Shown piece after piece: positions 2,882 to 23,710 of a stretch of DNA of 23,710 bases. This DNA is from a virus. Under the pieces are notes generated by a model that was not told the origin of the DNA, made no database searches, and saw only the letters and a program-made list of their open reading frames with translations. The translations under genes were made by a program, and so were the position numbers. The number at the start of each line of letters is the position of its first letter. The stretch's first letter is position 1. The stretch spans positions 1 to 23,710 of IMG/VR virus record IMGVR_UViG_3300037635_004132. One strand, given 5' to 3'.

Positions 2882-3508
2882 CTACTCGTCCACAATATCA
2901 GCGTCAATGATTTTCTTTTCTACAGCTTGAACAGAGCCTTTCCCCTTATCCGCTTTTTCATTGTTCAAGATAGAGACATCGATCGAGATCTTACCAGACC
3001 CGCCCCCGCCTTTCGCGCCCAACCCTAAGTTGCGGCGAATCATCTCATCCAACTGACTGAGTTCCCGAATTGATCGCGGACCACGGATCTGCCGCATGCT
3101 GTCGCGCAGCATCTTGATACCCGCCGCAGCGATGTAAGATTGGTATTTATCGGAGGGAGTGTTTTGAGCTTCCGCAACCTTTGCCAGCCTCTGGTCTTCT
3201 TCCAGTGACTCCTCGTAAGCCTTCATGCTGTGACTGGTGATCGCGCTGTCTAAAGCCCCGTCAAGATTCCCCTCCAGTTGTTGCTGCAACTCGTCGAAGT
3301 CTCCTGTATCAGGTTCCGTCGTTGGTTTTGGTGGTGGAGGGTTACCTGCCCTCTTGGGTGGTACACCCGCTGCCCGCAACCATTTGCGAACAGTCGCTGG
3401 GTGAATTCCGATGTCCCGCCCGATCGCCGCGTTGGAGAGACCTAGATTGTGAAGTTGCAGGGCTCTGGCCTTGCGGGGATCTGTCTTGCCTTTCTTCTTT
3501 GCTGCCAT
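2882..3508 (-). CDS. terS: Terminase small subunit
   Basis: This 208-residue protein has a basic start (MAAKKKGKTDPRKARALQLH) and a helix-turn-helix at about residues 12-45 (LGLSNAAIGRDIGIHPATVR), as in small terminases that bind the packaging site. A Pro-rich linker follows (about 50-65), then a helical oligomerisation region (about 70-165), a Gly-rich linker (GLGAKGGGGSG) and a C-terminal tail ending IDADIVDE, typical of the large-subunit-binding end. I chose the ATG at 3508. An upstream extension in the same frame would overlap the divergent large terminase gene and looks non-protein-like. The gene is divergent from terL with only 30 bp between starts and heads the leftward operon. The usual arrangement is terS-terL in tandem, so the opposed orientation is unusual. 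Confidence 0.8.
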   Translation of the reverse strand: MAAKKKGKTDPRKARALQLHNLGLSNAAIGRDIGIHPATVRKWLRAAGVPPKRAGNPPPPKPTTEPDTGDFDELQQQLEGNLDGALDSAITSHSMKAYEESLEEDQRLAKVAEAQNTPSDKYQSYIAAAGIKMLRDSMRQIRGPRSIRELSQLDEMIRRNLGLGAKGGGGSGKISIDVSILNNEKADKGKGSVQAVEKKIIDADIVDE

Positions 3509-3538
3509 TAGGTTTAGCGGAGAAAATTCCTGACCACT

Positions 3539-5329
3539 ATGGCAAAGAAGGCTACTAAGCGCAAGCGCATACTGGAGCCACGTATCGACCCCACCACTCA
3601 ACAAATGGATGTTGGCGGTTTGATCATCCCTCCAACCAGCACAGTTACTGCACTCCTGTATGGGTTTGCACACCACCCCAATGAGATGGCCAAAGAGTTC
3701 TACTTCTGGCGAGTATGCGACGAACTGTGGAACAAGAATCCCGACCTGCCTGAGCCATTGATGGAGCCTCACCCTTGGGCGAAACGCATGATTCGCGAGG
3801 CAATTCGAAACCAATACCTTGCGATTGGTGGGTCGAAGTCGTCGGGCAAATCCCACACAATGGCTGCGTGGGGCATCGTCAACTGGTTGTCTCAGCCTGC
3901 CGACACCCTGATCCTGATGACCTCCACTACTCTGCGGGAGGCGCGTAAACGGATTTGGGGTTCGGCCATCGACTTGCTTGCCCCTATCGAAGACTCTGTC
4001 CCCATTAAGATTCGTGATTCGATCGGCAACGCTGCGTACGTAAACGAAAACGGAACGCTGTTCGAACGAGCAGGACTGTCGCTGATTGCGGCTGAGAAGT
4101 CGAAAACCCGCGAGGCTATCGGCAAGTTTATCGGTATCAAGCAGAAACGGGTCATCGTAATTGGCGACGAGCTTTCGGAACTTTCCGAATCAATCTTGCA
4201 GGCTGGTCTCCAGAACTTGTCGGCCAACCCTTACTTTCAACTGATTGGTATGTCCAACCCCGCCTCTCGCTTCGATGCGTTTGGGGTCTGGTCGGAGCCG
4301 AAGAAAGGCTGGGACAGCATCGACCCGATGATTGCCGACGAGTGGGAGACGAAATACGACGGCAAGTATATACGTCTCGACGGCGAGCGAAGTCCGAACG
4401 TGCTAGCGGGCGAGGACAAATACCCATTTCTGATCCGCATCAACACCATTGAGAAAGACAAAATCCATCTCGGCCCTGAGTCGCGAGGATATATGCGAAT
4501 GGTGAGGGCGGTATTCTTCGATTCAGACGAGGAATCAGGGATCTTTAGTGAACCCGACCTCGCCAAGAGCGGTGCAATGGGAACCGTTGAATGGGCGTCC
4601 GCACCGACGCGCGTGGCGGGGCTTGACCCCTCGTTCACGAATGGTGGCGACCGTACTATAGTCTATACCGCTGACGTCGGCTACGCCAAGAACGGGCACT
4701 ACGTCTGCCAGTTCATCGACTACAAGCACCTAATGGATGACGCCAACGATGCGGTTCCCCGCACCTACCAAATCGTTAAGCAGGTTATTGACTATTGTCG
4801 TAAGCACAAGGTTGAGCCGTCTAATCTGGCTGTCGATAGCACTGGAGCAGGTGCGCCGTTTTGTGACGTACTGGCAGGTGAGTGGTCGACTGACATTCTG
4901 CGAGTATCGTTCGGCAGTAAGGCTTCAGAGAAGCGGGTCAGCTCGACTAGCCACATGACGGGCGTAGACCTGTACGCTAATCGTGTATCTGAACTCTGGT
5001 TCGTGGGTAAGGAACTGATGAGAACAAAACAGGTGTTCGGGATATGCGCGGAACTAGCGCAGGAGATATGCGCCCGCAGTTACGACATGGTGAAAAGTGG
5101 TTCCTTAAAAGTGCGCGTTGAACCAAAACCCGACTACAAAGCACGAATGGGTAAGTCTCCCGACTTGGCGGACGCCGCATTTCTGGCCCTCGATGCAGCG
5201 CGCCAACGTATGGGACTCGTGTCTGTCGAACCACCAAAAGAGGATCAGGGTACAGGGTTCAAGCGTCGTACCTCGATTCGATCAATGCGTCGATCGTTGC
5301 AAAACCCTGACGCTGAGTTACTTGGCTAA
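3539..5329 (+). CDS. terL: Terminase large subunit (packaging ATPase and nuclease)
   Basis: This 596-residue protein is the motor that translocates and cuts phage DNA at the portal. The ATPase domain has a Walker A-like GGSKSSGKS at residues 97-105, a Walker B VIVIGDE at 205-211 with the catalytic Glu211, and a coupling motif LIGMSNP at 235-241. The RNase H-like nuclease domain starts near 358 with AGLDPSFTNGGDRT (Asp363), has AVDSTGAG at 431-438 (Asp433) and SPDLADA at 540-546 (Asp542). All three expected acidic residues are therefore present. The length is normal for the family. The N-terminus is basic (MAKKATKRKRILEPRID), and no strong Shine-Dalgarno precedes the ATG. No portal gene follows immediately, so the structural block is arranged differently from many tailed phages. 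Confidence 0.95.
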   Translation: MAKKATKRKRILEPRIDPTTQQMDVGGLIIPPTSTVTALLYGFAHHPNEMAKEFYFWRVCDELWNKNPDLPEPLMEPHPWAKRMIREAIRNQYLAIGGSKSSGKSHTMAAWGIVNWLSQPADTLILMTSTTLREARKRIWGSAIDLLAPIEDSVPIKIRDSIGNAAYVNENGTLFERAGLSLIAAEKSKTREAIGKFIGIKQKRVIVIGDELSELSESILQAGLQNLSANPYFQLIGMSNPASRFDAFGVWSEPKKGWDSIDPMIADEWETKYDGKYIRLDGERSPNVLAGEDKYPFLIRINTIEKDKIHLGPESRGYMRMVRAVFFDSDEESGIFSEPDLAKSGAMGTVEWASAPTRVAGLDPSFTNGGDRTIVYTADVGYAKNGHYVCQFIDYKHLMDDANDAVPRTYQIVKQVIDYCRKHKVEPSNLAVDSTGAGAPFCDVLAGEWSTDILRVSFGSKASEKRVSSTSHMTGVDLYANRVSELWFVGKELMRTKQVFGICAELAQEICARSYDMVKSGSLKVRVEPKPDYKARMGKSPDLADAAFLALDAARQRMGLVSVEPPKEDQGTGFKRRTSIRSMRRSLQNPDAELLG

Positions 5330-5538: not shown

Positions 5539-6429
5539 ATGGCTGTAGCAAACAACTTAATGAATATGCGCGACCAGATGGTGGGTCGCTATCAGAATCT
5601 GCCCACAGTGCAAAAGAAAGCCCTACAGGGAGGGGCCAATAAGTACTTTGGGGGAGGCCAGAACGAGGGAGATGATGAGGAGTTCAACCCAATTAACGCC
5701 ATAGGGGATGCTGTCAAAAAATTAAACTCTGTGAATGATGAGGCTAACTCGTGGCAATACGCCAATGAGAAAGAAAAAGCCGAAACGAGAGAGGATCTCC
5801 GTAAGATGGCTTCTGAAGCATACGAGGCCGCTACTCCTGAACAGAGAACCCAAAACAAAGACTTTATTACCGCTGCGGCACTTTCTCTTAACCCGCCCGC
5901 TACACCTTCTTCTATTGCAGCCTCCGACCCTACTAGCCAACTTGACTCTCAGCCTACTAGCCAACCTACCCCTCAGACCAGTAGTATTGATTCCCAGCAA
6001 GCTGCCCGTAACGTGATGCTCGCCCGTCAATCTGGTAGCGGGTTGGCTGCGTATGACGCCATGCAAGACCCTAATTACGTGTTGGGTAGCGGTAGCTCAC
6101 TTAGACAGAGGCGTCGCATTGGCACTCAATCTGGTGACATGCGTCGCGAAGCCCGCCGCCTCCGTAAGCAAGGTTACACAAAAGCCGCAGAGCGGATGGC
6201 TTTGGGTGCAGCGGAACAGAAACTAGGTGAGGGTTCCGCCATCCGCACACAGGGCGATATTACTTCTCAGATGCAGGACCAATCACGAATGAGAAACCAG
6301 CTCGGTCAAATCGAAGGGTTGAATCAGCGGATGATCGAATATCAAAACCGATTACTAGATCGCCGCATGAGACAACTCGACGAAGATGACGAGGATGATG
6401 GACCATCTTACACATTATTGAATGAATGA
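5539..6429 (+). CDS. Putative virion-associated low-complexity/coiled-coil protein, 296 aa
   Basis: This 296-residue soluble protein has an N-terminal region (about 1-50) with NLMNMRDQMVGRYQNL and a Gly-rich stretch. A charged helical segment follows (about 55-115). A Ser/Thr/Pro/Gln linker (about 118-155) contains repeated PTSQ units, and the C-terminal region is Arg/Gln-rich and helical (about 185-275). It ends in an acidic tail (DEDDEDDGPSYTLLNE). There is no enzyme motif, signal peptide or membrane segment. Its place after terL and before the giant gene, and its 4-nt ATGA overlap with the next gene, suggest an internal virion or ejection-type protein (compare T7 gp14 by position only). 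No clear homologue recognised. Confidence 0.65.
   Translation: MAVANNLMNMRDQMVGRYQNLPTVQKKALQGGANKYFGGGQNEGDDEEFNPINAIGDAVKKLNSVNDEANSWQYANEKEKAETREDLRKMASEAYEAATPEQRTQNKDFITAAALSLNPPATPSSIAASDPTSQLDSQPTSQPTPQTSSIDSQQAARNVMLARQSGSGLAAYDAMQDPNYVLGSGSSLRQRRRIGTQSGDMRREARRLRKQGYTKAAERMALGAAEQKLGEGSAIRTQGDITSQMQDQSRMRNQLGQIEGLNQRMIEYQNRLLDRRMRQLDEDDEDDGPSYTLLNE
5929..5966 (+). repeat. Short direct repeat encoding PTSQ units
   Basis: CCTACTAGCCAAC occurs at 5929-5941 and again at 5953-5965, a 24-nt period, and encodes PTSQ-type peptides in the linker of the 296-aa protein. It probably arose by slippage. Confidence 0.5.
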
Positions 6430-7391
6430 TTGATTACGCTGACATCTCTTCTCTGAAGGGGCAGTACTTTGGCCTTAACGCTCCGACGTCGGCCATTGCT
6501 CCTTTACAACAGCAAATGATTAAGCAGCAATCGATGATGCTGCAATCTCAGTCGCAGGAACTTGCGTTTCAGCGGCAGAAGCAGGATTACGACAATGCTA
6601 AGCGGCGCGCTCGACTAGAGGCTGACAGCCTTGCGATGATCCCTGAGCTGAATAAACGTCTGGAAGTTTTCGACGACCCGAATATGTCCACTGAAGATCT
6701 CGCCGCTCAGATCGGAGAGATTACAATGGAGATGGCTCCGTTGGCCGTTTACAGCCCACAAATGGAATCCGTCCTGAAATCCGCTCAATCTCGCGTCGAT
6801 TCCCAAATGCAGCAAGATTACCGTCAGTCTCAGCGAGAGTCCCGCGAAGAGCAACGTCGACTCGGCTTGATGTCGTCGGCAGCGCAGATAGGCGACGTAG
6901 AAACAATCCAAAAACTTGCTGAGGCAGGCGGGATAGACGAAACGGAGCAGGCATATATGGATGTCGCAGGCACTTATCGCCAGCGCGCACAAGACAAAGC
7001 GCAGAAGGAGTCCGCAAAAGAGCAGGACGCACAAAAAGAGTCCGCCCGTAAAGAAATGTACGGCGTCTACAGCAATATCGAGAAGAACCTACTTGGCCTT
7101 AAAACTGTTGATGACGAAGAGATTGGTGAAATAACTATCTCAGGCAGTGATAAAGCACCTAAAGTGGGTACTGCTGGTAAGCCTTTGGAGTTCGACAAAC
7201 AGTCCAAACAAGAGCTTTTCGAAACTCTCTACAGACTCGCACCTAAATTAAAGGGGGAGATCGAAGACAAAGAAGATTCAGACTTGTACTCACTAGCTCT
7301 TCGCCTTACTAATGAGGGCTTGACAGCCCTTAAACCAAAAGCTGCACAAGATATTTCCGTTTCCTCTGTTGTTAATGCATGGGGAGAATAA
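6426..7391 (+). CDS. Putative internal virion protein, coiled-coil, 321 aa
   Basis: This 321-residue, very helical, Gln/Glu/Arg-rich protein begins MIDYADISSLKGQYFGLNAP. Residues about 25-75 (PLQQQMIKQQSMMLQSQSQE and onward) and about 120-215 (SQRESREEQRRLG, then DKAQKESAKEQDAQKESARK) look like long coiled coils. The C-terminal part (about 235-321) is more globular. There is no membrane segment. It is translationally coupled to the preceding gene through an ATGA overlap and sits 26 nt before the giant gene. By position and composition it may be an ejection or internal-core protein working with the giant protein, as T7 gp15 does with gp16. This is inference; I do not recognise the family. Confidence 0.65.
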   Translation: MIDYADISSLKGQYFGLNAPTSAIAPLQQQMIKQQSMMLQSQSQELAFQRQKQDYDNAKRRARLEADSLAMIPELNKRLEVFDDPNMSTEDLAAQIGEITMEMAPLAVYSPQMESVLKSAQSRVDSQMQQDYRQSQRESREEQRRLGLMSSAAQIGDVETIQKLAEAGGIDETEQAYMDVAGTYRQRAQDKAQKESAKEQDAQKESARKEMYGVYSNIEKNLLGLKTVDDEEIGEITISGSDKAPKVGTAGKPLEFDKQSKQELFETLYRLAPKLKGEIEDKEDSDLYSLALRLTNEGLTALKPKAAQDISVSSVVNAWGE

Positions 7392-7417: not shown

Positions 7418-10400
7418 ATGTCTGAAGTCGACCGCTTGATGGACCTTGCAACGGGTCCCGCCAAACCCGCAGTTCAATTCGATTCCTATTCCGTCTGGGC
7501 CGACAGCCAATCAGATGACGCTGACGTCTCTGCTTTTCACACGGGGTATGCAGACTATCTCCGTGAGGAACACATTAAGGCAAAAGCCTACGACTCTGCC
7601 GTCGAGCAAGACATTCTGAAAGGGATGTATGGGTCTCTCGTGAAAGACGGGCGTTTGCAAGAAGGCGACTTAGAAGGTTTTGAAAAGCTGAACGCTGCAC
7701 CAGAAATGGGCTTTGATAGGCGCGCTGACTTTTTCCTTTCGTCGGTGGAATTCGACAAGGACGAGAACAGCGACTACCGCAAAGTTCAAAGGTACGCTAA
7801 TCATCGCGACCAAATTGCTAGGGGCGAGTTAAAAATAATGGGGGAGGTTTCGGAAGATCAAACCAATCTTCTGGAACAGCGTCGCCTTGAAGCTGAAGAC
7901 GTCATGTCGCGTCACGGGGACGACGATCTAAGACGCCTCGCAGTGAAGAATGGCGAGTTGGCTTTTGCATCTGTCCTGAATGACAAGGGGCAACGTGTCG
8001 TCATCGCAGGTGACCGCGCATTAGAGACAGACCTACTGACGGGACTCAAGCAGTCAAAAACAGGGGGCGTTACTTTGTCCGATGCGCTTGGCGCACAAGC
8101 TGAGCTGGAAACTCCTGAAGGTTTCTCTCTTCCCCGATTCCAACTTCGGCGAGTTCACGAGGCTGCTACTGGGCTTGAAGAACTGGTTAAACAAGACGCT
8201 TTCTTACAAACACAGGTCGCGGGCCATGCTCAGAAAATGGCTAAAATGGAGTATGACGATGGAGACAAATTGTCTTGGGGGATGGATCAGTTCGGACAAA
8301 CTGCGACCGATATCTTTGGTCGGTTGTTGGGTATTGCTGGAACTGAGGAGAATAAAATTGAGCGAGAAGCTCAGCAGCGCGCGGAGCAAACTGATGTTCG
8401 TCAGGTCGTTCGATCCCTCGTTAAACGATTGAACGCCTCTGGCGAAAGCGACTTCACGCAGGAGGAAGTCATGAAAGCCTACACGCAGGTCGTTCTAAAT
8501 GACGCCACTGCCAGCGGGCGGTTTGAGTTCCACGACGGAGATGACGAAGTTGGTAAGAACATTCGCACCTTCGGTTACGGCGCGCCTTCAGTTCACCCTG
8601 CCGCTATGGCGAATGAGGACACCTTCAATAAGATGCTCGCAGCTCGCGACGACATTAGCGATTCTGTTAAAGACAATCTTCGCGCTAACCGAAAAGCCTA
8701 CCTTACTGACTCCTTTGACGACACGAGCAACCTGTTGGGACGTTCTGGCGTAGCTGACGACTGGCACGAGGCCCTGATCGAAGGACGCCGACAAGGTAAA
8801 AAGAACTATGAAATTCTTGATGGTTTCTTAGCTGATGAGAAAAATTTCAGTGCCTTTAGTGAACGGGCGAAAGGGGTTGCTTGGTCTCTTTGGGACGCAG
8901 GCGCGCAGCTAGTAGCAGCCGTACCCGCAGCAATGGGAGCCGACTGGGCCCAAGATACGCTGGTAGCCAGCGCACAAAGAAATTCTGACCGCCGTCAGGT
9001 CGCTCAGCTTTTCGGCGAAGACTTTGGGTTCGGGCAGGATATCGCTGAAACTATTGCTCCGATGCTGACAGACGTGGCAGCTACTGCCGCCCTAGCAGCG
9101 GTGACCGCTAAAGCGGGTGGTGTCGGTGCTGTGGCGTATCAAGCAGGAAAACAAGGCGCGCGCATCACCGCCAAAGGTATTGTGAAAGGGTTGACTACTT
9201 CCGCCTTCCGTAATGTAGGCGAGAAGGGAGCAAAAGACGCTGCTGAAAGCCTTGTTGTGCAGGGGCTTATTAAAGAGTCTATTAAAGATACTTCGGGTAA
9301 AGGATCGATGGCCGCTATTAAAGCGTACAACGGACTACTGGCCCAAAAAATTGCGAAGCATTCCACGTTACCTGCTATTTTCGTTCCTGCTGCGACTCGT
9401 TCTGGTGGCGCAACTTATGGGTCGGTCTATAACACCCTGAGCCAAGACCCTTCGTTATCGGAGGAAGAAATCCATGACCGCGCGTTAGGTGCTGCATTAG
9501 GTGCGGGCGCGTTGACTGGTTTGATTACTGCAACCTTTAGTGCCTTTGGTCGCGGCGGTGTTGAAGACGCTCTTCTCAAAGGTCTAAACTACAAACAGGC
9601 CAAAGCACTTATCGGGTCTCTTTCCAACACTTCAGGCATCAGTAACGCTACCTTCAAAGAGGTGGTTACCGCTCAGGCGAAAGCAACTCTGAAAAATTTC
9701 AAGTTGGCCACTGCTTACGGAATAATAGACGACGCAAAAGACGAAGCCCTCGAAGAGGGCCTTGATCAACTGTTCAACGGCTTTATCGAAGATGCCGCAC
9801 TGCATCAGAACACCCCGATGGTGGAGCGTTTCCAACAGTCGATGTATGCCGCTGCCCTTGGCGGAACGATGGGTGCTGGAGCTACTGGCATCCGCAAGAT
9901 CGCAGGTAGCATTGCGCCTGACACATACGAGAAAGCCGCCCAAGCCCGCCAACTGCAAGACCAATTTGTTACTGACGTCACTGCGCGACTCGCAACTACA
10001 GATAGCCCTATGACCGCACAGGCGGTTGCAGCTCTGTTGACATCAAAAGCGCGGAAACGTGGTAAGGCAGCAGCCACTCCTCAAAAACCCGATGCCGCAC
10101 CTGATCAGGATGAAGAGCAGCTTGAGTTGGGGCTCGACGTAGAGCCAACTGCTGACGGGGCCCCAGCAACTCCTACTGGACAACCAAGACCTACTCTCGC
10201 GGCGGTCGATGCTCGTCTTGTCGCTATTGAACGAGAGCTTGGCCCCCGCACCCGACTGGTCGGTGATTCCAGTAATCCCGACACTATGGTTTCGCAAGAT
10301 ATCCGTATCCCGACCAGCGAAGAATCACAACTGCTTGAGCTGAGGAAAGAGATAGCAGATAGAGAAGCACCTTCCCTACCCACCAAAGAAGTCGAGGACG

Positions 10401-13400
10401 CCGTCGCTGAGCGTATGTTGCAGGTTGCGACTTTGATGATCGAACCAGCTAGTGGTCGGAAGAACAAGAAGCGTAGCCGCAGACAACAACGACAGATCCA
10501 ACGACTGGAAGATGAAATTGCTTTCATGCAGGAAAACAACACGACGGACATACCCGCCGAAATTCCTAAACGCGCCCCCGTTGAGCAGCCTGCTCCTCCT
10601 GCCCCAACACAAGAACAGCTTGAGCTTGATCTAAACACTGAAGAAACTGCAACTCCTAAGCAGATTATCGAACGTCTCGAAGCCCTGCCTGCCGAAGACG
10701 CGCGCGCACGGGTTTTGCTGGCTATCGACGACATGGAGGGTCCTAGATTGTTCGATCGTCGAATTGCGATGTCTATCCTTTCGACATCGAAAACAGGTCG
10801 CACGGCTCCCTTTAACAGTCTTTTCCCGCCCAATGTCACTGGCGCGGCGGAAGCTGCTGGTGCTGACCCGCAGCAAGCTGCACTTAACAACGCCAAGCAT
10901 GTGGATTTCTTCTTGCCTGATCAAGAGGAGGATCTCGATCCTGCTCCTAAACGAATCGGATATGTGTTTCCGAAAGATTCAGAACGCCGCAAATCTTTTG
11001 CTGTGGGTAAGAAAGTTGAGCTTGACCTGAAACCTTTCAAAGAAGGCGACACGGCTCAAGAAGAAGAGTTGGCTGAAGCACTGAGCGCAGTTCAACTCGC
11101 TCAACAGGGTTACCCCGTTCGATTCGGCTCTGGTATCAAGTACGGCACGATCGTGGATAACAAGCGCATGAAGAGTAAGTCGGACTTCGTGGCTAATGCG
11201 GTTTACACGTATTACCCCACTATCGAAGCTGATGCTTCTCAGATCTCAGAAACCCGCGCTTCTACCAGACAACGCACTTACTTTGATCCAGCTCAAAACA
11301 AGACCGTCACTGGCCGCATCAAAATGCCACTAGACGCAGACGGTCGCGGGATCTTCACGAACGATCCTGTGGTCGTAGCCGAAATGCTGGCACACAACAT
11401 TCCAGTGCGGGCTCCGAACGGCACGAAAAACATCAACCCCGCCATCAAACCCTATATTAAGCGGGGGTATGTGACTGACGTTCGCATGCCGTCCAAAGAT
11501 GGTTCGATGCTAGAGTCTGCCATCACTCGTGTCGATGCACCTACCGACCTGAGACCGAACAACAACCAGTTTGAAAACATCGCAAAAGTTCAGTTCAGGG
11601 GCCTCCCCCCTGTTGAAAACGAACTGAATGAGTTGTTGATGGCACATTCAGAGCTTGGTGCAGAACGCAATATGTCCGATAAAATCGGGCAACTGTTTAG
11701 CAGCAAGAACTTCAAAATGGATTCAGAGTTCGCTGACTATACTGTGCAGTCGACGGCAACTGAATTTGCTCTGACGTCTCACTTGTACGAGCTGCACAAG
11801 TATTTCATGGACTCTCGTCGCCGACGCACGTTGGTTGATTCTCCTAAAGGCAAGACGATCAACCCGTCTAGCCGAAAGAGAGCGATCGCCGAATTGCGTA
11901 GCCGCCTAAGTGGTGACCCTGAGTTGAGCGAAATGGCCGAAATACTGTCGCCTATGCTCCGTCTCAAGGAATCAGCGAAGCCAACTCATACCGAAGTCGT
12001 CGTCCAGTTCATCGAAGACTTCGTCCTCAACAATCCCGACTTTGACGGCGGCGTGATGCCGACCTTCGACTCGATCTTTGAGCGGACCTTCAATCGCTAC
12101 GCTCAGCAGCAGCGCGAGCGCGGCGTCAACGAGCGAAACAAAGCACTCGTTTCGATCGACACCGAAGAGGTGGGTACTAATGTCATCGACACCCAGCAAC
12201 TTCGTGATGGTACTCTCGACGTTGGCGGCATCGACCCCGCTGAACAGATTGACGAGGGGGCATTCCTTAACACGGTGACCAATGTTATAGATACCGCTAT
12301 CGACAGTGTCGATACCGACCCGATGCTGCGTGACGCGCTCAACGACCTTGCACTCCAGTCCATCTACACGAACCCTGATTCAGGAACCGTGAGCCATGTA
12401 CAGCGCATGAATACCCGTGACCTCATGGCCCGCATCGGTACATGGATGTCCGCAGGTGACCATGCTACTCGACCCGCTGCGTTGGAGTTCACTGCGCTGC
12501 TCGAAAGTGGCGGCTTCCGCTCTGGAATCGAACTACGCAACGCGCTCCGCCTGACTTCGATGTTCGGTCGCATTGACGGCGACGCCTCTGCTAACCCCGA
12601 CGTTATCTCTGAAGTCCGCCACCAACTTAGTGAATCACTGGGCCAACCCGTTACCGAAGCGCGCGCCCGCAATTTCGTTCGATCAATGGATGGTGCGATG
12701 CGCCGTCGCCTATCTCGTGCGGTGATTGGTAAGATTTCCGACGCAGACGCGCTGGAACAAAACACTATCGAAGCTGAGCGACTGGGACTTAAGTCTGGCG
12801 ATCCTAGTTCCGTGATCGCCGCGCTTGAACAGATCAGTAAGCGCAGCAAGAACAAGTCTCATCGACTGGTCGCCGAACTCCTACTTGAGGATAAGATCTT
12901 CATCCAGAAGGTCGGTTTCTCGATGGGACAGAGTAACGCCGACATTGCTGGTGAATACGTCCGCCACACCGACGGCAAGCACAGCGTGTTCCTGAACATG
13001 CAGAAGTCCAACGGCATCGATTTGGAAAACGTGCTGTTGGAGGAATACGTTCACGCTTTCATGTCCGACACGCTCGCCAAGCCTGATGAGCTTCTAAACT
13101 CACGTCAGCAGACTGCTCGTCGTCGATTGGAAGGATTGTATCAGATCGCTCAGCGTGAGTATCGACGTGTAGCTGACAGCAATTCCGCCGACACCAATGC
13201 CGTGCTAGAAGCAGGTCTCGAAAACATGGACGAGTTCGTCGCTAACTTCTTGCTCGACCCTGACTTCCAGAAGTTCATCAAGACTCTTGACACTCCTGTA
13301 GGCCAGCGCGGCTTCTTCGCCCGTATTCTGGATGCGATGGTTGCGATGTTCCGTAAGATCAGCCCGAAAGAGAATGCTCTGTACGCCTCAGCCCTGAAGG

Positions 13401-16400
13401 ATGTTGTCGACCTCAGCAAGTCGACCATGCGCTCTTCGGCTGTTCCTTTCAAGCAGCAGGCTGCGTCAGCGGTTCATGAAGCATCGAACAGGATTCAGGA
13501 AGCAGGGCGCGTGATGACCCTCCGCACTTCGGTGATGTCCGCTCCTGAGACTAATGCTGAAGCCAGCCTTAGAGAAACTTATGAACCACAAACAGATGAA
13601 GAGGTTAATGCCGCAGAACGTGCTAACCAAAATAACCGCAGCCCTATTTTATCTGTCGCGGCAGTGCGATTAGCAAATGGACAAATTACCATAGAAGACT
13701 ATGCGAGAGCAGTAGACGCTATCGATCCATTTGTGGTTAAAGGCGTAGAAAAAACACCTTCGGAAAGCAGCATTCGCAAATACATATCAACGGCTAAAGT
13801 CGACAAAGTGGGTGTCAAGGTAGATCCAGAGACACTTGTAGAGGTTCGTATAGATATCCCAACTTATACTAAATCTGTGAAAGACGGCAATGCAGTCTAT
13901 GCAGTAACGCTACACGAGCCAGTTTCATCCACGGCCACTAGAGTAGGTACACCATTGTCTTACGTGCCTATGGCCCACCTCACTAACGTGGATATGAGGA
14001 CAAGAGCCATTAGTGGAAAAGGTGGAGCTATTCGCATCGCAGCAGGTCAAGGTAAGACACCATTGGCAACTGTGGCTGGGAAGTTGGTAAGCACGTCGAC
14101 GATACCTAAAGACATTTCTGAATACACTGAAGTGTCCTACAACCCGATTAGGTCTAGTGAGTTCAGAGACGTATCCAATAGACGTGTTGTTATCGGCGGC
14201 GACGAAGCCGTCTCTATAGGCTCACGGGTATACGTTAAAAATCCAAGATATGGGAGTGAACCTTCAGGTTACATTGACTCACTAACTCCAGAAGCTGACA
14301 TCCGCTACACCAGCATACCTGAAGCAGGCAGCACACAACTCATCTCTGATTCTCAGAAAGACCTGACCACTGAACAGCAGCAAGCTGAGTTCGAAGAGGT
14401 GGTCGGCTTCTTGCGCGAACGGCTGCCGTACGGCGTCCAGTTCAAGCATGATCCAAACATGCCAGCCGCGATGGGCGCAGACGGTGACTTTATCCTCATA
14501 AACCCGAAGATCCTTATGAGAGGTCTGGAGTCATTCGACCGACTAGGTAAGCGGAAAATGGTGGATATCATGCTCCACGAAGAGATCGGCCACGAGGCTT
14601 CCTTCGGCGCACTGACTCAAGCAGAAATTGACGGTCTAGTCGATTCCCTGTCAGATGAGCAGTACGCGGAGATCGCGAGTGAGTACTACAGATTTAATCC
14701 AGATCAGCAGCAACAAGCATTAGCTAACTTGCAGTCAGAAGATCCCGCCGTTGTTGCGGAAGAGAAGTTCAGACTGGCTGAGGAAAAACTCCGCATGCGA
14801 TTGCAGGAGATTACTCGCGGCTATACGACTGAAGAGGACGCTGAGTTCTGGAGATCCAAGCCATCTTTGCTGGCGATCCTTAAGCGTTACATCGGTGGCG
14901 TGATTAACAAGTGGGCGGCCAACCGCCGCTTGAACGGTGCATCTGGAACGATGGACGCTGCACTGACTAAAGTGATCGGTGAGATGCAAGCCATCGAGCT
15001 TGGATTCTCTCGCCAGAAGTTGTCGCAGACGTTTAACCCTAATCTGCCCGCAGAGTCTGTGGAAGCATACATGCGCGCGCTGAACGCAGATCCTTTGGGT
15101 GACATTGAGGATTACACTAATGCCGCGAATCAAGTCGCGCTGTTCGCTGCTACCGCCATCGACTCCAAAGCGTTTAACCGCATCATGAACTATGCGGGAC
15201 TCAACATGGAACTTGCTCGCCGAACCAAGAAACGTGATATCGATGTAGAAAGCATGACTGACGAGGAGCGTGATGCGTTCATGGAGGAAGAACAAATGGC
15301 ACTAGAAATGGAATTGGCAGGTGCGCCTATTGATCTCGATGACCTCGACCCTGAACTTAATCAGTTTATGGCTACTGACGATGAGATTTTCGGCGTAGAT
15401 TCTGACTTAGATTCTGACGTTGTCTTCGGCGAAAAAATCAAAGAAGTATTCGAAGCTGTTAATGTAGGTGCAGACTACGCTCTCGAAGTTAAGACTGACC
15501 AAGGTGAAGTAGACATTATTTTGAAGGGCGACGAGGGCCAAGAAATCAACTCCGTCGACTTGTATTTGCAAGGCAATGGGGTGATCAAGATCGGAGAAAT
15601 GAAATCTGCCGAAGAAATTGGTAGAGCGCGTATAGGGTCGTCTTTCGCGGAAACTCTGCTTACGACCTTGATCGTCAACAACCAAGAATTAGGTATAAGG
15701 CGTATCACTACAACCGCAGGAGGTTCGAGTAGTGATGTCCGCACTTCCAGAGCGTACAAGGAGATCATAAATCGATTTGTCGCCCCCAATGTAAATCAGG
15801 AAGACTCTCCTTCGGTGAAAATGAGCGGCATGGAGTCATTAGCACCCCGCAACCTTTCTATGAACGGTTACTATAGTTGGCCTGCTTACGGTTTTGACAT
15901 GGTGAAGTCACCCACCTCAAACCCTGACACAGCTATTTTTGACCCAATGTATTTCAAGACCGTAGAGAGTTCGATACGAAACGCAGTTTCAGATGTGGGC
16001 GATAATCTAGACTTATATGGGTCGACAGTAAAAGATGGTGAACCTGCTGATGACGCCAAAGGCTTAACTCTGAAATATGTGTCAGGATTGACAAACGAAG
16101 AGATCGTTCAGACCTTGTTGAAAGAGGCTAAAGCTGAGTTGAAGGAACTTCGCAGTCTGGTAACTAGGCCAGACGGTCAGATTGACTTCTTTTATGGTCT
16201 GCACGACGAAAACATACCTCGCGCAACTCGAAATCGTGTGGCCTATCTGTGGCAAATGTATGGCGTTCAGACCGAAGTTGAAATGAGCCTCTCTCGGTAT
16301 AGCGCGAATCTCGCAGCATTTCTTCAGCGTAAATTTAGTTCACTCATCGCCGTAAAACAGATCCCTGAATTGACTGCGATCGTCGATGAGTTTGAAACTA

Positions 16401-19400
16401 ATCGCCGCAAGCTGAAGAAGGAAACCGACAGTGAGTCGTTGCCAGAGGCATATCAAGATTTGCAAGACGAATACAATGCGCGAGTCATCAATGAAGGTCT
16501 TCTCGATTTCCCTGTGTTCACCAGCATTGGTCAGAACGCAGGCAACTCAAGCAGCCTCGACGGTGTGGACTTCGGCAATGTTGTTCAGCTTCTTGAGATG
16601 CCCATGTACGAATATCAAGCGTACAAAGCACCGAAGGGTTGGCTCAGCCGCCTGTTCATGGGTGACGTCGGTCGCCCAGTCAAGCAGCTCATCGATCAAC
16701 GTGAAGCGTTTAAGCGGGCTTCTACCCGACTGGTTAAGCAGTATAAGGAGAAGATGGATAAGCTGATCGTCGAAGCCTACGGCGACCCGTCCAACACTGA
16801 CTGGGACTTGATCGCTCAGGCTCAAGGTTATGTCGACGGCGGTCTACTGAACGAAGACACGATCCAGCAGTTCGACGATGAACACATGGCTCGCCTTGAT
16901 AGGATCAATCAGAATGATCAACTTACTCCACGAGAGAAGCAGATCATGCGGGACTCCAGTCGCGCTAAGCGAGACAAGTCTATCGAGAACGCTGAGGAAC
17001 TTGCACTTAAGCAAGCTCAACGCGCATCTGATGCTGCCTTGACTAAACTGGGGCAGCGTTCTTCTGAACTCGCCGCGCACATTAAATCGATGCGCCGCGA
17101 CCTGATCCAGCCGATCCAACAGAAGATGAAAGACGCTGGTCTGACCGACGAGATCTCCGCTAAGATCGACCGCACTGGTGGGATCTACATTACTCGCGCC
17201 TACCGCATGTTTAACGATCCTACGTTTGCTGAACGTGTGAGAACCGATCCGCAGTATGCTGATCTGCGCGACCGCGCTATGAAGTTCTTCGAGGACGAAC
17301 TGTACAAGAACATGTACAATTCGACTTACTCTCAGACTTACGACAAGTTGGTCGACCAAGGCATGGACGCGGGGTTAGCCAAAGCTAAGGCCGAAGATAA
17401 GGCTACGAAGAAGGCGAAGAAGGCTGTGAAAAAGGCATACGACAAAGCAGGCTACGGCCACACTGCGGGGTCGGCTGCGTTGGAAGCATTCCTCGACAAG
17501 TATAGTGAACGGACTGGAGTATCTCCGCAGTCAGCGAACGGCTTGAAAGTGTTGGAGGATAACCTCAAGAAACGCAAAGATGTACCGAAAGTCATTCGTG
17601 AGCTGCTGGGCGAGTACGGGCCACAGGAGGGAACAGACTTGATTGTCCGTACGTTCTCGACGGTAGCTAACGTCGCCGCGCAGCAGACGTTCCTCAACAA
17701 CGTCGCTGAGGTCGGTAAGCAGCAAGGCTTCCTAGTGGATCAAGCCACGTACGAAGCTGCGCGAGACCAATATGAGGACTACGTGCCTCTTCGCAGGGGC
17801 AACAGCACCAACCCGAACGACCCGCTGAACAACTTGTACGGGCCTAGGGATATGGTCGAGGCGATGCAAGATACGCTTAACCCATCTTTCACTGTTGACC
17901 ATAACTCTACTTCGGAAAAAGCGGTGCGCGGTCTTTCAGTCGTCGCCCAAAAACTCACTGGCCAAGCGATGGCCATGAAGACTTTAGGTTCTGTTGGTTT
18001 CTTCCTGCGGAATGCATTAGGTAACTTCCTGTTCTTCGGGCCTGCTCAAGGATTCTTCAGAGTAGACAAGATGATGGGCCGCTCGTTGATGTTCAACCGC
18101 ACTAGCTTGGACGAGAAAGGTCAGCGATTGACTGACGCTCAGGTGCAAGAGTACCTGACGGAGTTGACAGGATTGAACATCGTCGGCGACGAGTTGCATG
18201 CAGGATTGTTGCGCCAGTTGCTGAATGGGGAAATCGATCCCGATAGCGCACTAGCCAAGATCAACAAAGCAATCGATGAGATTCCAGTAATCGGCAAGAC
18301 CAAGAAAGGAGCAGCCACTTTGCAGAAAAAGCTGGCCGACTTGTCCGCAGCAATCGACGGACGCTACAAGATTGCCTACTACGAAAACGAGTTGTCGATG
18401 CTCTTGGAAGCTAAACGCCGCTATCCTAAGTCAGACATCGGTCGAATGAGCGAATACGATCTTAAGCGTATGGCTGCTGAGAAGGTTTTGATGACCGCTC
18501 AGTCTCTGTCGCAGGCTCCCCCGCTCGCGCAATCGCTGACCAAATCTGGATTCGGTATGGTGTTCGCGCCGTTCATCAGGTTCAAAATGGAGGTTCCCCG
18601 TATCGTCATCAACACCTACAAACTTGCCGCGCGAGAGCGTAAAAGCAATAACCCGATGGTACGCGCTCGCGGCACACGGCGGTTCTTTGCGATGACTGGA
18701 GTTCTAGGTGGATTCTCTGCCGCCGTTCCTGCGACGCTGGCTGCGCTCAGTGGAGTTGGTGGAGAAGAGGACGAAGCACTCCGCAAGTCTATGCCTGAGT
18801 ACTTGCGAGGCCATACCTTCTTCTACCTGCGGGACGACAAAGGTAATCTCAGGTCGGTCAACATGACTTACCTGAACCCCTTCAGCTTGCTCGTCGATCC
18901 GTTTCTTCGGTCTCTGCCGAAACTGGCGAAGGGAGATATCTCCGATGCTGTAGGACAGTTTACGAAAGGAATGGTTTTCGACACCTACCTCGATGATCAG
19001 ATCTTGGCGGGGTCGATGATGGACGTCCTCAAAAACCGCAACAGCACGACCGATGATCCGATATGGGTCGAAGGCGTAGATGGTTTGGGGGCGAGCCTCC
19101 TGAAGTCGGCGACTTACCTGTATGAGAACTCGTATCAGCCTCGCCTCTTGAAGGACATGATCGACGCGAAGAATGCTACGGGCGGAGACTACGAAGGGTT
19201 CTCCAACTCGCCTCTTGGTCAGTTGTTGGACGGAGCGTATCCCGTCAAGGTACACGAAGTCGACCTACAGAAGCAGTATCGCCGATTCATCTACAGTCAC
19301 CTCGATCGGATGAGCGCAGTGAACAAGCAGAAGTACGAGCTGTATTCGAAGGAGTCCTTCGATCCTGATAAGATCGACTCTATCTACCAGCGAGAACTAG

Positions 19401-19675
19401 ATGGCAAGCGCGCTCTGAACCAAGAGATGCTGCGAATAGCTCGCGGCTTCGAAGGCTTGGGCTTGTTGGCGAAGGATCAGTTCAGAATGCTAAAGAGTCG
19501 AGGCGTTGGAGGTAACCGCGCTCGACTTATGTTCCACGGCATCATGGATCGCCCCGAAATCAACAAGCAGTACGCCAAAGGCTTGGTCGAACGAGGCTAT
19601 GCGGCCCGCTTGAATGAGATGGTGAAAGCACGAAACAAGCGAGCCCGTTATCTCCATATCGAAGATCCCGATTAA
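7418..19675 (+). CDS. Giant 4085-aa multidomain polyvalent virion protein
   Basis: This single uninterrupted 12,258-nt frame is over half the window. Residues 1-530: charged helical region. About 546-575, 690-712 and 808-831: Ala/Gly-rich hydrophobic segments, with an EALEEGLDQ motif near 776-784, a look common in ejected phage proteins. About 860-1090: charged linkers with QLELGL (901-906) and QLELDL (1067-1072) and a basic patch near 1015-1024. About 1830-1990: zincin-like domain with LLEEYVHAF (E1875, H1879) in place of HExxH and DEFVANFL at 1938-1945. About 2047-2305: lower-GC inserted module. About 2315-2560: second zincin-like domain, HEEIGHE at 2387-2393. About 2650-2920: GNAT-like module (GRARIGSSFAETLL at 2735-2748, GYYSWPAYGFD at 2817-2827). 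About 2930-4085: helical C-terminus with hydrophobic segments near 3522-3542 and 3755-3783 and motifs PFIRFKMEVP (3718) and YLNPFSLLVDPFLR (3818). It probably enters the host with DNA and combines ejection with host takeover. No Shine-Dalgarno precedes the ATG. Confidence 0.9.
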   Translation: MSEVDRLMDLATGPAKPAVQFDSYSVWADSQSDDADVSAFHTGYADYLREEHIKAKAYDSAVEQDILKGMYGSLVKDGRLQEGDLEGFEKLNAAPEMGFDRRADFFLSSVEFDKDENSDYRKVQRYANHRDQIARGELKIMGEVSEDQTNLLEQRRLEAEDVMSRHGDDDLRRLAVKNGELAFASVLNDKGQRVVIAGDRALETDLLTGLKQSKTGGVTLSDALGAQAELETPEGFSLPRFQLRRVHEAATGLEELVKQDAFLQTQVAGHAQKMAKMEYDDGDKLSWGMDQFGQTATDIFGRLLGIAGTEENKIEREAQQRAEQTDVRQVVRSLVKRLNASGESDFTQEEVMKAYTQVVLNDATASGRFEFHDGDDEVGKNIRTFGYGAPSVHPAAMANEDTFNKMLAARDDISDSVKDNLRANRKAYLTDSFDDTSNLLGRSGVADDWHEALIEGRRQGKKNYEILDGFLADEKNFSAFSERAKGVAWSLWDAGAQLVAAVPAAMGADWAQDTLVASAQRNSDRRQVAQLFGEDFGFGQDIAETIAPMLTDVAATAALAAVTAKAGGVGAVAYQAGKQGARITAKGIVKGLTTSAFRNVGEKGAKDAAESLVVQGLIKESIKDTSGKGSMAAIKAYNGLLAQKIAKHSTLPAIFVPAATRSGGATYGSVYNTLSQDPSLSEEEIHDRALGAALGAGALTGLITATFSAFGRGGVEDALLKGLNYKQAKALIGSLSNTSGISNATFKEVVTAQAKATLKNFKLATAYGIIDDAKDEALEEGLDQLFNGFIEDAALHQNTPMVERFQQSMYAAALGGTMGAGATGIRKIAGSIAPDTYEKAAQARQLQDQFVTDVTARLATTDSPMTAQAVAALLTSKARKRGKAAATPQKPDAAPDQDEEQLELGLDVEPTADGAPATPTGQPRPTLAAVDARLVAIERELGPRTRLVGDSSNPDTMVSQDIRIPTSEESQLLELRKEIADREAPSLPTKEVEDAVAERMLQVATLMIEPASGRKNKKRSRRQQRQIQRLEDEIAFMQENNTTDIPAEIPKRAPVEQPAPPAPTQEQLELDLNTEETATPKQIIERLEALPAEDARARVLLAIDDMEGPRLFDRRIAMSILSTSKTGRTAPFNSLFPPNVTGAAEAAGADPQQAALNNAKHVDFFLPDQEEDLDPAPKRIGYVFPKDSERRKSFAVGKKVELDLKPFKEGDTAQEEELAEALSAVQLAQQGYPVRFGSGIKYGTIVDNKRMKSKSDFVANAVYTYYPTIEADASQISETRASTRQRTYFDPAQNKTVTGRIKMPLDADGRGIFTNDPVVVAEMLAHNIPVRAPNGTKNINPAIKPYIKRGYVTDVRMPSKDGSMLESAITRVDAPTDLRPNNNQFENIAKVQFRGLPPVENELNELLMAHSELGAERNMSDKIGQLFSSKNFKMDSEFADYTVQSTATEFALTSHLYELHKYFMDSRRRRTLVDSPKGKTINPSSRKRAIAELRSRLSGDPELSEMAEILSPMLRLKESAKPTHTEVVVQFIEDFVLNNPDFDGGVMPTFDSIFERTFNRYAQQQRERGVNERNKALVSIDTEEVGTNVIDTQQLRDGTLDVGGIDPAEQIDEGAFLNTVTNVIDTAIDSVDTDPMLRDALNDLALQSIYTNPDSGTVSHVQRMNTRDLMARIGTWMSAGDHATRPAALEFTALLESGGFRSGIELRNALRLTSMFGRIDGDASANPDVISEVRHQLSESLGQPVTEARARNFVRSMDGAMRRRLSRAVIGKISDADALEQNTIEAERLGLKSGDPSSVIAALEQISKRSKNKSHRLVAELLLEDKIFIQKVGFSMGQSNADIAGEYVRHTDGKHSVFLNMQKSNGIDLENVLLEEYVHAFMSDTLAKPDELLNSRQQTARRRLEGLYQIAQREYRRVADSNSADTNAVLEAGLENMDEFVANFLLDPDFQKFIKTLDTPVGQRGFFARILDAMVAMFRKISPKENALYASALKDVVDLSKSTMRSSAVPFKQQAASAVHEASNRIQEAGRVMTLRTSVMSAPETNAEASLRETYEPQTDEEVNAAERANQNNRSPILSVAAVRLANGQITIEDYARAVDAIDPFVVKGVEKTPSESSIRKYISTAKVDKVGVKVDPETLVEVRIDIPTYTKSVKDGNAVYAVTLHEPVSSTATRVGTPLSYVPMAHLTNVDMRTRAISGKGGAIRIAAGQGKTPLATVAGKLVSTSTIPKDISEYTEVSYNPIRSSEFRDVSNRRVVIGGDEAVSIGSRVYVKNPRYGSEPSGYIDSLTPEADIRYTSIPEAGSTQLISDSQKDLTTEQQQAEFEEVVGFLRERLPYGVQFKHDPNMPAAMGADGDFILINPKILMRGLESFDRLGKRKMVDIMLHEEIGHEASFGALTQAEIDGLVDSLSDEQYAEIASEYYRFNPDQQQQALANLQSEDPAVVAEEKFRLAEEKLRMRLQEITRGYTTEEDAEFWRSKPSLLAILKRYIGGVINKWAANRRLNGASGTMDAALTKVIGEMQAIELGFSRQKLSQTFNPNLPAESVEAYMRALNADPLGDIEDYTNAANQVALFAATAIDSKAFNRIMNYAGLNMELARRTKKRDIDVESMTDEERDAFMEEEQMALEMELAGAPIDLDDLDPELNQFMATDDEIFGVDSDLDSDVVFGEKIKEVFEAVNVGADYALEVKTDQGEVDIILKGDEGQEINSVDLYLQGNGVIKIGEMKSAEEIGRARIGSSFAETLLTTLIVNNQELGIRRITTTAGGSSSDVRTSRAYKEIINRFVAPNVNQEDSPSVKMSGMESLAPRNLSMNGYYSWPAYGFDMVKSPTSNPDTAIFDPMYFKTVESSIRNAVSDVGDNLDLYGSTVKDGEPADDAKGLTLKYVSGLTNEEIVQTLLKEAKAELKELRSLVTRPDGQIDFFYGLHDENIPRATRNRVAYLWQMYGVQTEVEMSLSRYSANLAAFLQRKFSSLIAVKQIPELTAIVDEFETNRRKLKKETDSESLPEAYQDLQDEYNARVINEGLLDFPVFTSIGQNAGNSSSLDGVDFGNVVQLLEMPMYEYQAYKAPKGWLSRLFMGDVGRPVKQLIDQREAFKRASTRLVKQYKEKMDKLIVEAYGDPSNTDWDLIAQAQGYVDGGLLNEDTIQQFDDEHMARLDRINQNDQLTPREKQIMRDSSRAKRDKSIENAEELALKQAQRASDAALTKLGQRSSELAAHIKSMRRDLIQPIQQKMKDAGLTDEISAKIDRTGGIYITRAYRMFNDPTFAERVRTDPQYADLRDRAMKFFEDELYKNMYNSTYSQTYDKLVDQGMDAGLAKAKAEDKATKKAKKAVKKAYDKAGYGHTAGSAALEAFLDKYSERTGVSPQSANGLKVLEDNLKKRKDVPKVIRELLGEYGPQEGTDLIVRTFSTVANVAAQQTFLNNVAEVGKQQGFLVDQATYEAARDQYEDYVPLRRGNSTNPNDPLNNLYGPRDMVEAMQDTLNPSFTVDHNSTSEKAVRGLSVVAQKLTGQAMAMKTLGSVGFFLRNALGNFLFFGPAQGFFRVDKMMGRSLMFNRTSLDEKGQRLTDAQVQEYLTELTGLNIVGDELHAGLLRQLLNGEIDPDSALAKINKAIDEIPVIGKTKKGAATLQKKLADLSAAIDGRYKIAYYENELSMLLEAKRRYPKSDIGRMSEYDLKRMAAEKVLMTAQSLSQAPPLAQSLTKSGFGMVFAPFIRFKMEVPRIVINTYKLAARERKSNNPMVRARGTRRFFAMTGVLGGFSAAVPATLAALSGVGGEEDEALRKSMPEYLRGHTFFYLRDDKGNLRSVNMTYLNPFSLLVDPFLRSLPKLAKGDISDAVGQFTKGMVFDTYLDDQILAGSMMDVLKNRNSTTDDPIWVEGVDGLGASLLKSATYLYENSYQPRLLKDMIDAKNATGGDYEGFSNSPLGQLLDGAYPVKVHEVDLQKQYRRFIYSHLDRMSAVNKQKYELYSKESFDPDKIDSIYQRELDGKRALNQEMLRIARGFEGLGLLAKDQFRMLKSRGVGGNRARLMFHGIMDRPEINKQYAKGLVERGYAARLNEMVKARNKRARYLHIEDPD

Positions 19676-22762: not shown

Positions 22763-22843
22763 TTATCCTGCGATCATCCAAAGAATGATCAGGAAGACGG
22801 AAGCAGGGATCGCTGCACAGAGGAATGATAGGATAGCATTCAT
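22763..22843 (-). CDS. 26-aa single-pass membrane peptide coupled to the VWA gene
   Basis: An ATG at 22843 opens a 26-codon frame starting MNAILSFLCAAIPASVFLII and ending LWMIAG before a TAA. Nearly the whole peptide is one hydrophobic helix. Its ATG overlaps the TGA of the upstream VWA-domain gene in an ATGA, the strongest evidence that it is translated. It also fills what would otherwise be a 108-nt gap in a region where genes are packed end to end. The function is unknown. A small membrane modulator or a spurious hydrophobic frame are the alternatives. It lacks an independent ribosome binding site. Confidence 0.5.
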   Translation of the reverse strand: MNAILSFLCAAIPASVFLIILWMIAG

Positions 22844-23710
22844 GCACAGCTTACCTTGATGCGCTCCCCGAAGGGAACTGAGTGGTCACGGTACGGACAC
22901 CAGTCGAGCCAGAGTACTGGAACGTGTGGCTCGACAACGTCATTCCAGTCGTGGACATCGAGGTCAGACAGGTAGATGATGCCGTCGATATCAGGACAGT
23001 TCTCCTCGATGTGTCGGAACACAGGAGCGAAGAGCGTACCGCCGCCTCCAGCCAGTTTACGAGGGACTTCGTCACCCGCCTTCAACTCGAAGACATCGCG
23101 GACAGCGTGGTCGTGACTGATCAGGTGGACAGCTTTGGGGCGGAGTGTGTCGATCGAATCTTGAGTCGCGTCGAGCATCTCCTGTACGACAGAGGACGGG
23201 ACGCTGATGGACGTGTCGACCACGATGGCAAGCTCGCCGATGCTGTTCGACTCGCGGTCATCTTCGACAAGGCCAGTGGCAGCGAAGGTGCTGATGCGGA
23301 TGGGCTTGTTCCAGCCCTCATCCAGCCTGTCAGTCATCCACTGCTTGACGTAGTCCGACCACTCAAGGCCAGCCCACTGGCGGCGTTGCTCGACGATCTC
23401 ACGAGATCCAGACGGGCCAGACGTGCCAGCCTGCTCAGCCAGTTGGTCTTGCAGGATGACTCGCTCGTTCTCTTCGTCGACAGCTTCAGCGAAGGACTCT
23501 TCGGTCTCGCCCTCATCGAGGATGGGATCGGCGAGGTCAGTGCCAGCCGCCGTACCGACCCAGTCATTCAGGATGTCTTCGTCGGTCTTGGGCTCGTCGT
23601 TAGCAGGTACGCCATTGGCGGAGTCGGAGTCGGAGTCGGAGTCGGAGTCGGAGTCGGAGTCGGAGTCGGAGTCGGAGTCGGAGTCGGAGTCGGAGTCGGA
23701 GTCGGAGTCG
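22840..23710 (-). CDS. VWA-like (DUF2201-type) protein, C-terminal part, 5' end off window
   Basis: The frame is open from the right edge to a TGA at 22840, about 290 codons. The part nearest the edge is a Ser-Asp dipeptide run encoded by (GAGTCG)n. An acidic linker follows, and then a C-terminal VWA-like domain: ELAIVVDTSISVPSS carries the MIDAS DxSxS (codons at 23203-23217), followed by HLISHDHAV, the GGGGTLFAPVF loop and IIYLSDLDVHDW. This matches the C-terminal domain of the DUF2201 family, whose N-terminal half is a predicted zinc peptidase and whose genes often sit beside a MoxR-type AAA ATPase. Both would lie beyond the window. The internal ATG at 23337 is not the true start, because the frame continues upstream with sensible protein (SDYVKQW). 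Confidence 0.8.
   Translation of the reverse strand, partial: DSDSDSDSDSDSDSDSDSDSDSDSDSDSDSANGVPANDEPKTDEDILNDWVGTAAGTDLADPILDEGETEESFAEAVDEENERVILQDQLAEQAGTSGPSGSREIVEQRRQWAGLEWSDYVKQWMTDRLDEGWNKPIRISTFAATGLVEDDRESNSIGELAIVVDTSISVPSSVVQEMLDATQDSIDTLRPKAVHLISHDHAVRDVFELKAGDEVPRKLAGGGGTLFAPVFRHIEENCPDIDGIIYLSDLDVHDWNDVVEPHVPVLWLDWCPYRDHSVPFGERIKVSCA
23621..23710. repeat. Perfect hexanucleotide microsatellite (GAGTCG)x15+
   Basis: Fifteen identical GAGTCG units run from 23621 to the window edge with no variation. On the minus strand they encode alternating Ser-Asp. The unit length is a multiple of three, so changes in copy number keep the frame. Confidence 0.95.

Follow-up and report, generated by a model that had tools for sequence, protein, structure and literature searches.

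The tetrameric ejection protein (TEP) gp48 of phage phiM1 is part of a structurally solved ejectosome (PMC11440229). TEPs of the phiM1/phiKMV type (phiM1 gp48, PDB 8vb2; 9sfn, 1337 aa) are large, cysteine-free proteins of 1,030 to 1,340 aa that carry a zincin module; neither a second zincin-like module nor cargo slots have been described for them. The N4 virion RNA polymerase (vRNAP; gp50, 3500 aa) is likewise a single cysteine-free chain, in which a C1 domain bearing an HExxH motif (PMC12633501) is followed by a long helical C-terminus. Encapsidation of N4 vRNAP depends on the region surrounding its zincin, and the chain enters the particle uncut (PMC5512222). The lack of cysteine in N4-like vRNAPs has been attributed to their route through the tail and an oxidising periplasm (PMC3715699, PMC3915230). 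Polyvalent proteins (Iyer et al. 2017, PMC5512222) join disparate domains, zincin and GNAT among them, and are encoded next to the terminase. Their typical, although not obligatory, hub domain is a zincin-like MPTase with an HExxH (or HExxxH) motif, for which a core of a helix, strands, a motif helix and a Glu-bearing helix has been described, and auto-processing of polyvalent proteins by their zincins has been proposed in general (PMC5512222).

Here we analysed a 23.7-kb record from a virus collection, referred to as the window, in which a single gene on the + strand begins with an ATG at 7418 and runs to a stop ending at 19675. Its 4085 codons contain no internal stop and have a coding-gene-like GC content at the three codon positions (60/40/55%). 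Since relatives at 20-60% amino-acid identity retain a single intact open frame, the frame is real and a chance opening is excluded, which bears out the uninterrupted 4085-residue frame noted in an earlier sequence-only reading of the window. The giant is the third ORF after the terminase large subunit (3539..5329, +; phrog_2), which we used as the family anchor. Between the two lie a 296-aa ORF (5539..6429, +) and a 321-aa ORF rich in Gln, Glu, Lys and Arg (6426..7391, +), both free of cysteine, which are a probable small ejection protein and a probable second ejection protein, respectively. Relatives of the first small ORF stand behind the terminase at 28 of 80 loci and those of the second at 26 of 80, many of these loci being truncated. 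The giant gene thus shares the late/packaging gene neighbourhood that is characteristic of polyvalent proteins.

A second contig, IMGVR_UViG_3300037631_003745, encodes an identical giant protein (100%), has 19.15 kb of DNA in common with the record at 99.98% identity and adds 16.6 kb of genome. It also has MoxR- and VWA-like genes, and at its far end three ORFs (757, 382 and 445 aa) would by size and order suit a portal, a scaffold and a major capsid protein; PHROGs gave no confirmation of these three labels. Within the window, the VWA-like gene (22840-23709, −; also in G001) has a long Ser-Asp repeat, and its neighbours are a gene for a MoxR-like AAA ATPase and a minus-strand gene of 306 aa. 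Labels for its VWA part disagree, with PHROG giving "HNH endonuclease" and Pfam a DUF2201 VWA-like domain. Another minus-strand ORF (2882-3856) has an HTH_23 DNA-binding domain (4.5e-6); the start listed for it implies a 318-base overlap with the terminase gene on the opposite strand, and the true start is probably internal.

The terminase large subunit matched 419 viral contigs in the virus collection, with identities of 70-100% among the 80 matches listed. Neither the terminase (tblastn) nor the family's capsid matched any of 50,697 isolate phage records, so the giant protein is undescribed in isolates. A profile of the giant's C-terminus matched 18 of 21 linked contigs, in open frames of up to 4828 codons with no stops inside, and the giants that are complete or almost so span 3,088-4,828 stop-free codons. 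At least 89 giants match each of the profiles for zincin 1, zincin 2 and the C-terminus, and the N-termini of relatives can be aligned from residue 1. Host assignment from metagenome-assembled genomes was dropped, as the terminase occurs in bins of three unrelated groups.

Searching the whole chain against Pfam and PHROG gave weak matches only, and the chain had to be sliced. An alignment of 24 giants established a conserved order, given here in positions of the 4085-aa protein: an N-terminal module (1-930), a linker, a middle conserved block (1231-1769; 11108..12724, +), zincin-like module 1 (1770-2030), a variable slot A, zincin-like module 2 (2310-2610), a variable slot B and a helical C-terminal module (3050-4085). 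The N-terminal module (7418..10207, +) is conserved family-wide and contains the Gly/Ala hydrophobic segments that the earlier reading had mentioned, which we located at aa 545-564 (9050-9109, +) and aa 689-710 (9482-9547, +). It had no match in the PDB, nor did it match the N4 N-terminal domain or TEP by hhalign.

Zincin-like module 1 (12725..13507, +) links the giant to ejection proteins. Its profile matched PDB entries 9sfn_G, annotated "Internal virion protein" (E 9.6e-9), and 8vb2_A, the phiM1 gp48 structure (E 2.2e-8). With hhalign, the module aligned to the ejection-protein family (98%, E 3e-14) and to N4-like virion RNA polymerases (97%, E 2e-11) at about N4 residue 2226, which falls inside C1 (PMC12633501), while controls with reversed columns stayed below 1%. 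By these profile comparisons, module 1 is a true homologue of the ejection-protein zincins. AlphaFold2 predicted, with pLDDT mostly 85-98, a helix, three strands, a motif helix and a Glu-bearing helix, the arrangement known from polyvalent zincins. A Foldseek search with the zincin model returned nothing below E 0.1; several of the sub-threshold matches were zincins, and we did not count them as evidence.

The canonical HExxH is absent from module 1, which reads E1875-E-Y-V-H1879 (13040-13054, +), with a third Glu at E1939 (13232-13234, +). Across 17 diverse members, the second Glu and the His of the motif, along with the downstream Glu, never vary. The first motif residue is His in 50 of 101 members (HEYxH) and Glu in the other 51, and on a tree of 50 members the switch amounts to two changes. 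As His occupies this position in the ejection proteins and in N4 vRNAP, Glu is probably the derived state. That it has persisted points to a retained structural or altered-metal role rather than decay, and module 1 of the EEYxH sub-family has probably lost classical zinc-peptidase chemistry, its value now being structural or lying in a changed metal site. The requirement for the corresponding N4 region in encapsidation, together with uncut packaging of that protein, suggests that module 1 has a packaging role independent of peptidase activity, which would account for loss of the first His. We make no claim from the correlation between Glu state and cargo (19 of 24 Glu members vs 8 of 26 His members), for which the tree gives only one or two independent contrasts.

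Zincin-like module 2 (14345..15247, +) contains H2387-E-E-I-G-H2392 (14576-14593, +). We rejected this string as a full HExxH, since the family alignment sets the extra His one step upstream and the motif is EExxH. The form xEExxH holds almost throughout the family: among 91 members with a readable motif, the first His is present in 10 and missing in 81. Neither zincin-like module therefore has the motif typical of polyvalent zincins in this protein, although relatives do have HEYxH. In a few giants (L174, L175 and their relatives) the arrangement is the opposite of that in other members, with a canonical HExxH in module 2 (HELAH, HETIH) and EEYVH in module 1. The predicted structural elements of module 2 follow one another in the same order as those of module 1. 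However, hhalign between the two modules was not significant (0.7-0.8%), and only the predicted topology suggests that module 2 is homologous to zincins. The sequence-only reading had noted two zincin-like regions and had spoken of a duplication. The predicted folds agree with two such regions and their shared topology with a duplication, but profile comparison of the two modules did not back the duplication and the canonical motif is found in neither (EEYVH, HEEIGH). Likewise, the profile-profile check it had called for tied module 1 to zincins but did not connect module 2 to module 1.

The helical C-terminal module (16565..19672, +) is common to many giant and virion proteins of phages. It matched phrog_22602, "virion structural protein" (E 1.5e-5), as well as Cellulophaga phi19:3 gp129 and the polyvalent protein of Pseudoalteromonas phage Y3, and it aligned to the wider family with hhalign at 100% (E 1e-79). 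We found it in 97 viral contigs, mostly in giants that are otherwise unlike this one. In Foldseek, the C-terminal model matched phi19:3 (E 2.8e-13) as well as a number of "large polyvalent protein" entries, at E-values reaching 1e-3. A search of the PDB with the C-terminal profile gave mainly influenza hemagglutinin HA2 chains (E ≥0.003), which we rejected as chance coiled-coil similarity. The hydrophobic part of the helical C-terminus, anticipated in the earlier reading, is one stretch at aa 3756-3780 (18683-18757, +). By hhalign, the module had no detectable relation to the TEP C-terminus (<1%) or to the C2/C-terminus of N4 vRNAP. In the Y3 record (OR779980.1, our L005, Pseudoalteromonas phage vB_Pun_Y3) we noticed that about 1000 bases are repeated perfectly in direct orientation (13826-14826 and 14826-15826, spaced by exactly 1000), which cuts the giant polyvalent gene into two. 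Because this repeat divides the gene, the split is probably an assembly artefact, and the auxiliary gene published as an "ADP-ribosyltransferase" (ORF31) probably encodes the giant's C-terminal part.

The slots vary widely among the 89 giants, from 12 to 319 aa for slot A and from 17 to 1478 aa for slot B, and a tree built from the C-terminal module calls for at least 7 gains or losses of slot B. In the window, slot A carries a domain like L5 gp82 and phrog_586 (aa 2073-2300; 13634..14317, +) that is found in few relatives. Its match to Pfam Phage_L5_gp82/phrog_586 (E 4.5e-5) is below the curated cut-off of that family, structure prediction gave low pLDDT and we claim no fold for it. Residues 2076-2275 are 29% identical to an ORF adjoining the portal gene in an uncultured podovirus. 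The same domain recurs in slot A of the relative L206 (E 1e-49), while the relative L239 has it in slot B (E 1e-32), which is direct evidence that cargo can occupy different positions.

Slot B carries a predicted GNAT-fold domain (about aa 2666-2829; 15413..15904, +). When its AlphaFold2 model was searched against the PDB, nearly all of the 50 matches listed were GNATs or acetyltransferases by name, with probabilities of 0.96-1.00. Their E-values were no better than 0.015-0.08, so the assignment is supported at the level of fold. The GNAT-like region expected from sequence was thus recovered, and prediction region by region, which the earlier reading had recommended, yielded this fold as well as the zincin-like modules. 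The acetyl-CoA loop reads GRARIGSS here and is poorly conserved in relatives, which leaves the activity of the cargo enzyme uncertain; the domain may be inactive. Other members carry an ART-PolyVal domain (8e-15), a match to a tRNA-ligase phosphodiesterase model, or DUF7178 (PF23802). The last is the commonest named cargo, with 9 of 39 inserts (best E 1e-30), and sits in slot B of L016, L178 and others.

Given this plan, the giant can be set against each described system. With the TEPs it shares the zincin module and the lack of cysteine, however, at 4,085 aa it is far longer and the two C-termini show no detectable relation. N4 vRNAP resembles it in being a single cysteine-free chain with a C1 homologue ahead of a long helical C-terminus, but when the giant's four conserved modules were compared with N4 vRNAP by hhalign, C1 was the only match, and the giant had no Pfam match to a T7-like single-subunit RNA polymerase domain. 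T7 gp16 has a lytic transglycosylase domain, to which the giant had no Pfam match as a whole chain or in slices. Like polyvalent proteins, it combines what are predicted to be disparate domains, a zincin-like module with an altered active site and a GNAT fold included, and its gene lies by the terminase. Unlike them, it holds its cargo in fixed slots of one conserved chassis, and no curated LPD/polyvalent Pfam domain was found in the whole chain or in slices. The phrog_22602 proteins (phi19:3 gp129 and the vB_PunP_Y3 giant) share its C-terminal module and also lack cysteine, whereas their N-terminal and middle parts differ, with ddrB-ParB, LPD1, LPD5, ART and methyltransferase domains in Y3.

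The giant has no cysteine in 4085 residues, where codon-position base composition predicts about 50 and the rate in the terminase (6/596, 1.0%) predicts 41. Across 66 non-redundant family members we counted 3 cysteines in 245,867 residues. The minus-strand genes tested contain 0.3-3.6% cysteine, and both small ORFs before the giant contain none. Of the known ejected proteins that we counted, N4 gp50, gp51 and gp52, T7 gp15 and gp16 and all three from a phiM1-like phage are free of cysteine, and T7 gp14 has one; the polymerases and terminase counted in those phages have 8-37. The scaffold-like 382-aa ORF and a 280-aa ORF, both short, are cysteine-free as well. Absence of cysteine looks necessary, yet is not exclusive to ejected proteins. 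By analogy with N4-like vRNAPs, passage through the tail and an oxidising periplasm may explain it in the giant family too.

Together, homology to ejection proteins and to a virion protein, the absence of cysteine and the position behind the terminase argue that the giant is an ejection protein of polyvalent type carried in the virion, the largest of a set with the two small cysteine-free ORFs. We hold this with good confidence, and it agrees with the ejected polyvalent protein surmised from sequence; packaging, ejection, a conduit and cargo delivery are inferences, as would be any enzymatic or anti-host activity. We propose that the giant would be produced late and then packaged in the head, with module 1 and/or the helical C-terminal module probably serving packaging and assembly. 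It would pass the portal, tail and periplasm unfolded, ejected along with the small proteins, and would contribute to the DNA conduit across the periplasm. The extra domains, L5gp82-like in slot A and GNAT-fold in slot B, would ride into the cell as swappable cargo. An alternative is a non-virion late protein, such as a head-assembly or host-takeover factor, that merely borrows polyvalent domains. This group of giants is known from sequence only, which leaves room for such a protein, but cysteine is missing along the whole chain and the homologies are to ejection and virion structural proteins, and we regard it as very improbable.

Other alternatives accept packaging and ejection and differ in what the domains do. 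The giant may be a purely mechanical ejectosome or pilot, its GNAT-fold and L5gp82-like inserts being non-catalytic decoration. An acetyl-CoA loop of the R/Q-x-x-G-x-G/A type is not conserved among members, the catalytic zincin His is gone in the EEYxH sub-family and from most copies of module 2 (81 of 91), and members with a slot B of 17-54 aa are common, which indicates that cargo is dispensable. However, the inserts are diverse (GNAT fold, ART-PolyVal, DUF7178, the tRNA-ligase phosphodiesterase-model match and L5gp82-like) and overlap the effector repertoire of polyvalent proteins (PMC5512222), and decoration would not need enzyme folds; we consider this account a serious competitor, though an unlikely one. 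Modules 1 and 2 could instead be active metallopeptidases that free the cargo by cleaving the chain after injection, given that zincins flank slot A and lie upstream of slot B, that the second Glu and second His, like the downstream Glu, do not vary and that HEYxH is intact in 50 of 101 members. Against cleavage, module 1 here has Glu in place of the first His, and this Glu is kept in all 51 such relatives, and N4 vRNAP is packaged unprocessed despite its HExxH (PMC5512222), making active peptidases distinctly improbable.

Beyond the favoured reading of an ejected, polyvalent-type protein, we speculate, more tentatively, that the two-slot cysteine-free chassis is a general effector importer, in which a deep sub-family has changed HExxH to EExxH as a new metal site or as a packaging or unfolding element. 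One homologous zincin module connects the N4 virion RNA polymerase, the phiM1/phiKMV-type ejection protein and polyvalent proteins, and the lack of cysteine suggests a usable sequence signature for proteins that cross the periplasm. The family as a whole would offer many natural cases of a delivery chassis with swapped cargo.
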